From an uncultured Pelagibacteraceae bacterium (GTDB lineage: Bacteria > Pseudomonadota > Alphaproteobacteria > Pelagibacterales > Pelagibacteraceae): 64,000 nucleotides of DNA. Under the pieces are notes generated by a model that made no database searches, was not told where the DNA came from, and saw only the letters and a list, made by a program, of their open reading frames with translations. The DNA lies in NCBI GenBank assembly GCA_902553555.1, contig CACDLE010000001.1, positions 1-64,000 of the forward strand, read 5' to 3'. Shown in pieces: positions 55,943-57,174 of this stretch. The first letter of the stretch is position 1. The number at the start of each line of letters is the position of its first letter. The translations under genes and the position numbers were made by a program.

Positions 55943-56427
55943 GATATTGTTATATAGCTTTTCTTAGTAATGCTTGCAATTATATCTATGATGTTTTTTT
56001 TTGAGACAGCAATACATCCTAATGTAGGAGAATAATTTCTTTTTGCAACATGCATGAAAATTGCACTCCCTTTATTTTTTTTTGTTGGATTAATATTATA
56101 ATTAATAACCACTATAATATCGTAAATGTTATTTGATTTATAAAGTTTTTCGGCTTTATATTTAAATGGAAGTTTTACAAATCTATTATATTTTTTAGAC
56201 CTGATATCGTCGCACCATCCAAAATCTTTTTTGATAGGTATAGTTTTTAATCTTGATTTTATTTTTACTCTGTCTTTCCTATAGAATATGTATTTTAGTT
56301 TAAATTTACCTTTGGGTGTACATTTATCCCCTTCTTTTTTTTTATTGGTAATTCCTCTTTTACCAATTGCACATTTTACCTTATAATCTTTAAAATAAAG
56401 GCATTTGTTTTTTAAAAGGATATTCAT
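55939..56427 (-). CDS. L,D-transpeptidase (YkuD) family protein
   Basis: KCAIGKRGITNKKKEGDKCTPKGKFKLKYIFYR; GSAIFMHVAKRNYSPTLGCIAVSKK (HxxxxxxxxxGC-type active site); start set at MNILLKNK. Confidence 0.88.
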   Translation of the reverse strand: MNILLKNKCLYFKDYKVKCAIGKRGITNKKKEGDKCTPKGKFKLKYIFYRKDRVKIKSRLKTIPIKKDFGWCDDIRSKKYNRFVKLPFKYKAEKLYKSNNIYDIIVVINYNINPTKKNKGSAIFMHVAKRNYSPTLGCIAVSKKNIIDIIASITKKSYITIS

Positions 56428-57055
56428 GGTTGATAAAAAAAATATCATTTTAGCTATAGGAAATAAAGAATTTAATAAAACCTTAATTGAGTTGAAAGAA
56501 TATTTCAGTTTTACTTTAGAAATATCTGATGATTTTTCAAAAGAGGACCTAAAGAGCAAATATCATGGCTATATAATTCATGAAGATATTTTTAAAAATC
56601 CAAATTTAAATAGCATACTCGATGACAACACATCAAATAAAGTAATTTGTTATGAGAGAGATAACAAAATTATCAAAAGAGATTACGAAAAGATTTATTT
56701 ACCAGCTTCATTGGAGCATATAAACACAATAGTCATTAATAATATTATTAAAAAAAAATTTAAATATAATTCTTCAGTAAAAGTTTTAGATTATATATTA
56801 GACAAAAATTTAAGAAAATTAATGAAAGATCAAAAATCATTAGAGTTAACAGAAAAGGAAATTGATTTAATATTACTCTTAAGCAAGAATTTTTTTACAA
56901 AAAAAAAGGAGATCTTATCTAGGATTTGGAACTATTCAGACGAAGCAGATACCCATACTGTTGAAACACATATTTATAGATTGAGAAAAAAGGTTAAAAA
57001 AATATTTGATGATGAAACTTTCATTAAAAATGAAAAAGAAGGTTATAAAATTTGA
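56426..57055 (+). CDS. OmpR-type winged-helix DNA-binding protein with degenerate receiver-like N-terminus
   Basis: LTEKEIDLILLLSKN...KKEILSRIWNYSDEADTHTVETHIYRLRKKV...EGYKI; start set at MVDKKN. Confidence 0.85.
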   Translation: MVDKKNIILAIGNKEFNKTLIELKEYFSFTLEISDDFSKEDLKSKYHGYIIHEDIFKNPNLNSILDDNTSNKVICYERDNKIIKRDYEKIYLPASLEHINTIVINNIIKKKFKYNSSVKVLDYILDKNLRKLMKDQKSLELTEKEIDLILLLSKNFFTKKKEILSRIWNYSDEADTHTVETHIYRLRKKVKKIFDDETFIKNEKEGYKI

Positions 57056-57174
57056 AAAAGAGAAATAAATTTGCAAAAGAATTAAAGACTCCAAAATATC
57101 GCTCTAGAATTGTTAAACCTAAGAAAGGCAAAGGTAGTTTTACAAGAATTAAGAAAAATAAATATTTACAATGA
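57052..57174 (+). CDS. Unlisted 40-aa protein resembling alternative ribosome-rescue factor ArfA
   Basis: TTG 57052 to TGA 57172-57174: MKKRNKFAKELKTPKYRSRIVKPKKGKGSFTRIKKNKYLQ; L..P..R.R.....KKGKGS(F/Y).R as in ArfA; TTGA overlap with the upstream stop. Confidence 0.72.
   Translation: MKKRNKFAKELKTPKYRSRIVKPKKGKGSFTRIKKNKYLQ

Follow-up and report, generated by a model that had tools for sequence, protein, structure and literature searches.

The open reading frame at positions 57,052 to 57,174 of the 64,000-nucleotide stretch of DNA analysed here (the window) is very probably a minimal chromosomal arfA gene of the Pelagibacteraceae, whose product would act as an RF2-dependent backup rescue factor made by coupled translation, a function suggested by homology. 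The ArfA family frees ribosomes stuck on broken messages, and few cell types in the sea outnumber SAR11, the group that supplied the window. The original prediction had placed a 40-residue ArfA-like frame between TTG 57052 and TGA 57174, with its start overlapping the upstream stop codon, and both the frame and the TTGA overlap are present in the window sequence exactly as described. The features of the locus are as follows.

56426 to 57055, forward strand: upstream winged-helix regulator of the OmpR type, ATG at 56426, ending in TGA (Trans_reg_C, 49.7 bits)
57052 to 57055, forward strand: TTGA, start-stop overlap of the arfA-like gene with the regulator; an equivalent NTGA is found in 30/30 same-genus homologues
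57052 to 57174, forward strand: arfA-like gene, TTG start, TGA stop, 40 amino acids, with the core L..PKYR.RIVKPKKGKGSF.R
57118 to 57147, forward strand: codons for PKKGKGSFTR, residues 23-32, the counterpart of the E. coli ArfA segment lying in the ribosomal mRNA channel (structure in PMC5378476)
57192 to 58118, reverse strand: kinase of the pfkB family, convergent with arfA, its stop 17 bases past the arfA stop

The claim that the frame encodes an ArfA homologue is supported by profile search. The translation of 57052-57174, MKKRNKFAKELKTPKYRSRIVKPKKGKGSFTRIKKNKYLQ, scores 26.7 bits (E=3.8e-6) in a protein search with the Pfam ArfA model (PF03889), whose curated cut-off is 25.5 bits; in a six-frame search with this model, 24 of 61 relatives pass the cut-off and the window frame itself reaches 24.8 bits. 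PDB sequences matched at E values up to 10 are ArfA chains only (E 0.007-0.016), and the alignment lays window residues 5-35 on E. coli ArfA 14-44 in the ungapped register n+9, leaving the first nine residues of the E. coli protein without a counterpart. Ten decoys made by shuffling or reversing the sequence, and so identical in composition, all fail to match ArfA, and an NCBIfam search with the frame returned no match. All 30 same-genus orthologues, which make up the alignment and profile A1, match ArfA and no other family. Invariant among them are K2-K6, A8, L11, K15, Y16, R19, K24-S29 and R32. The basic KKGKGS block of the mRNA channel (K24, K25, G26, K27, G28, S29) is thereby kept together with R32, as is Tyr16, which occupies the position of E. 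coli Phe25, an RF2 contact. An aromatic residue, Tyr or Phe, is found at this position in 79 of 80 genome loci and in 80/80 viral loci (159/160 together).

The protein appears to be an authentic, conserved and minimal ArfA, and its family, partners and residues point with high confidence to a function in rescue. Residues 31-48 of E. coli ArfA occupy the mRNA tunnel, while the mid-region of the protein extends the RF2 beta-sheet (PMC5378476). By homology, the SAR11 protein would bind the ribosome and recruit RF2, its central part docking on the release factor through the invariant Tyr16, and the docked RF2 would then release the peptide by hydrolysing the stuck peptidyl-tRNA. Contacts to ArfA in the cryo-EM structure involve Val198, Phe217 and Trp319 of RF2 (PMC5378476); compared with E. 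coli RF2, the RF2 of genus-mate G034 keeps all three, in GVHR, HTSF and IGWG, respectively. Synthesis would end at an ordinary stop near the trimming point of E. coli ArfA, the function of which survives truncation at Asn47 and is lost after Met40 (PMC5378476). In register n+9, the end of the window protein corresponds to E. coli residue 49, and that of 35-residue homologues to residue 44.

The same residues bear on the identity of the release factor. An ArfA-derived rescue factor with another partner, RF1 or both release factors, like Francisella ArfT, is an unlikely reading, which agrees with a length of 35-40 amino acids (40 in ArfT), with the fact that no non-stop control is seen, as for arfT, and with changes in the hydrophobic patch, where two of three E. 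coli ArfA residues, Leu19 and Leu24, give way to Glu/Asp10 and Lys15 in the ungapped alignment. It is opposed by the near-universal aromatic at the Phe25 position, which ArfT does not have (PMC6299226), by the full KKGKGS motif, absent from ArfT, and by the conserved RF2 pocket; the window frame, with KKGKGSF and Tyr16, departs from ArfT-like features. The family profile does not call for the Leu19/Leu24 patch, which belongs to the structure of E. coli ArfA in particular. As these leucines are not kept, details of the RF2 contact may differ in SAR11 ArfA. E. coli ArfA itself will not work with an RF2 from another species.

Such an ArfA would operate beside trans-translation; in the known family, the protein frees peptidyl-tRNA together with RF2, and its gene is synthetic lethal with ssrA. 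SmpB and a tmRNA of the alpha type were both detected in 16/16 high-quality relatives, and no genome has more than two PF00472 matches, which seem to be RF1 and RF2. The ArfB model, which passes in two control genomes, stays below its cut-off in every one of 118 genomes from the order, where the matches listed are frames of RF1/RF2 size. ArfB was thus rejected as an alternative backup; the 40-residue frame itself is devoid of the GGQ catalytic domain. With tmRNA and SmpB present and ArfB not found in these 118 genomes, ArfA is the only recognised backup, and it would stand in for trans-translation in a lineage without recognisable ArfB. The assembly to which the window belongs, 63% complete, yields RF1 only, with no RF2, tmRNA or SmpB, so that these partners are attributed on the basis of the genus.

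The predicted arrangement, in which arfA adjoins and overlaps a winged-helix regulator, is conserved. The regulator stop TGA (57053-57055) is shared by the TTG start of arfA, and all 30 aligned same-genus copies begin on the regulator stop, as ATGA, GTGA, TTGA or CTGA. The TTG start holds for the window, and homologues also use ATG, GTG and, rarely, CTG (two of the 30 same-genus copies, L013 and L022, and 4 of 95 NTGA loci). A motif search of 124 partly redundant loci picked out the regulator in 110, of which 95 have NTGA and 15 overlap directly in another way, TAATG for example; it did not recognise the regulator in loci of genera g5 and g287, which are arranged differently. Five Pelagibacteraceae genomes without an arfA match keep the regulator in the same position, along with the convergent gene, and the regulator stop is TAA or TAG in them. 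TGA closes 17 of the 64 window frames that span 150 codons or more, so the constant TGA of the regulator goes with the arfA start. In the regulator, the OmpR-type DNA-binding domain alone is recognised, with no receiver domain found between 56426 and 57055; its relatives are present across the order.

Translational coupling, by which the protein would be made from the mRNA of the winged-helix regulator, is the likely route of arfA synthesis. A very improbable reading of the same geometry makes the frame a C-terminal extension of the regulator, produced by -1 frameshifting at NTGA. It could draw on the four-base overlap of the two frames in most loci and on the CTG at the putative start in a few, and is contradicted by in-frame stops directly or closely preceding the ATG in some loci of other genera, by the lack of a conserved slippery heptamer on inspection by eye, and by phages that carry the peptide without the regulator. 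It was rejected as inconsistent with the varied overlaps, which include NTGA, TAATG and longer forms. E. coli arfA is made from a non-stop mRNA through a terminator and an RNase III hairpin within the frame, a control that affects its upstream partner zntR (PMC10107115). A search for a terminator within the window frame found none, the RNA of the frame folds no better than its shuffles (z=0.25), and the 30 copies give a mean z of -0.34, one of them below -2, against mononucleotide shuffles. With no internal terminator and no significant hairpin, non-stop control is not supported and was rejected for the window gene. Non-stop synthesis is one way in which known ArfA genes are regulated and lies outside the sequence definition of the family; the regulator upstream of arfA is a notable parallel with zntR, for which E. 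coli-type control is not supported.

Conservation in sister genomes is extensive and, like the ArfA profile match, bears out the original prediction on a point at which it could have failed. A single-sequence search finds the frame in 33 of the 60 nearest other genomes (34/61 with the window's own). Among 248 Pelagibacteraceae genomes with a completeness of 80% or more, the A1 profile finds it in 208, spread over 9/10 genera, and in 116/140 of the high-quality subset; a few of the 208 matches are weak (E 0.005-0.02; genus g283 and G602). Named carriers include many Pelagibacteraceae single-cell genomes and HIMB058. The streamlined alphaproteobacterial host of the original prediction can be refined to Pelagibacteraceae (SAR11), in which the gene is near-core and not a local oddity; as some genomes of the family do without it, it is not indispensable. 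Across a class-wide sample of Alphaproteobacteria, 17/385 genomes match in all, some of the matches outside Pelagibacteraceae being convincing ArfA proteins. The same-genus copies are under purifying selection, with a mean pS of 0.62 and pN of 0.11 (pN/pS about 0.18) and variation at 33/34 third codon positions against 12/34 second positions in the 30 copies. A spurious lysine-rich frame of an AT-rich genome, as the short length, non-ATG start and low-complexity composition might suggest, can be dismissed almost entirely in view of the profile match with negative decoys, the family-wide conservation and the pN/pS of 0.18.

Viral sequences contain ArfA-like peptides as well: they are found in pelagiphages, in a roseophage, in phages of Caulobacter and Brevundimonas and at 146 stretches of IMG/VR. 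The peptides of marine phages in IMG/VR and gp30 of pelagiphage HTVC027P share the core with SAR11 ArfA, are 54-81% identical to the window protein along some 30-40 residues, and differ in being phage-borne, with other neighbours and without the host regulator, whose motif is found in 0 of 80 kept IMG/VR loci. The gene is common in marine viral contigs (L144-L223, IMG/VR), and in L146 it apparently lies, by eye, between clamp-loader genes of a T4-like phage. ArfA- or DUF7230-like frames fall in gaps between annotated genes of phages Cr30 (L295) and Henu6 (L296), so that the deposited annotation lacks them.

Certain peptides of Alphaproteobacteria and phages possess the ArfA framework without GKGS and match DUF7230 (PF23876), one of them from Pelagibacteraceae genome G448 (L283). 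DUF7230 shares the framework K.NP.AK.L...YR.KVV..K...Y.RK and differs from ArfA in missing the GKGS stretch. Comparison of A1 with the GKGS-less set by hhalign gives a probability of 95%, part of the set having itself been found through similarity to A1. DUF7230 looks like a sister form of ArfA from which GKGS is absent. Peptides of this type (L283, L287-L292, L296, L297) are distributed among bacteria and many Acinetobacter and Sinorhizobium phages. In the sister family of the order, short peptides of L244 (G038) and L245 (G045) show the N-terminal half, K.NP.AK.LRTPK.R, without KKGKGS. A tentative extension, somewhat short of even odds, would place ArfA in a wide and mostly unannotated superfamily of rescue factors of 35-50 amino acids in Alphaproteobacteria and phages, including the GKGS-less DUF7230, of which SAR11 would keep one member as its only trans-translation backup, controlled by coupling to a regulator instead of by non-stop mRNA, with exchange between hosts and phages.

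A review limits ArfA to some of the beta- and gammaproteobacteria (PMC8012679), and a 2024 survey of 15,259 genomes by nucleotide profile search reported arfA in 0/2,376 Alphaproteobacteria (PMC11633108), the class in which it is conserved here across most of the SAR11 family. A nucleotide profile search may well miss an AT-rich gene of 105-120 bases. Together, review and survey see ArfA, apart from the Bacillus BrfA group, only in gammaproteobacteria and part of the betaproteobacteria. In open-licence literature, the one relevant paper found to link ArfA or ribosome rescue with SAR11 or Pelagibacter concerns a phage gene, HTVC027P gp30 (PMC12753301). Should the SAR11 gene prove functional, a rescue factor of 35-40 residues would give bacteria that rank with the most streamlined of all free-living ones a second pathway in the absence of ArfB, and copies of it would be present in marine phages. 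SAR11 ArfA would also serve structure-function studies as a naturally minimal version of the protein, and could point to what DUF7230 does.

Among known systems, ArfA of E. coli and other gamma- and betaproteobacteria (PF03889) shares with the SAR11 protein the core L..P.[FY]R.R...KKGKGS[FY].R, an RF2 with a matching pocket, coexistence with tmRNA-SmpB and a transcription regulator as the upstream neighbour of its gene (zntR in E. coli). The SAR11 form differs by its alphaproteobacterial host, by the absence of the first nine residues and of the hydrophobic C-terminal tail, by an ordinary stop without terminator or significant hairpin, and by a start that overlaps the regulator stop. Francisella ArfT, part of a broad family described in passages that mention neither Alphaproteobacteria nor phages (PMC6514570), is similar in its length of about 40 amino acids, its charged C-terminal half and the lack of reported non-stop control, and differs in having KKGGSTNKK for KKGKGS and in lacking an aromatic residue where E. 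coli ArfA has Phe25 (PMC6299226). Bacillus BrfA is likewise a small RF2-dependent rescue protein, the mode of action presumed for SAR11 ArfA, and differs, by its description, in its distinct sequence, N-terminal helices and non-stop control (PMC6881298).
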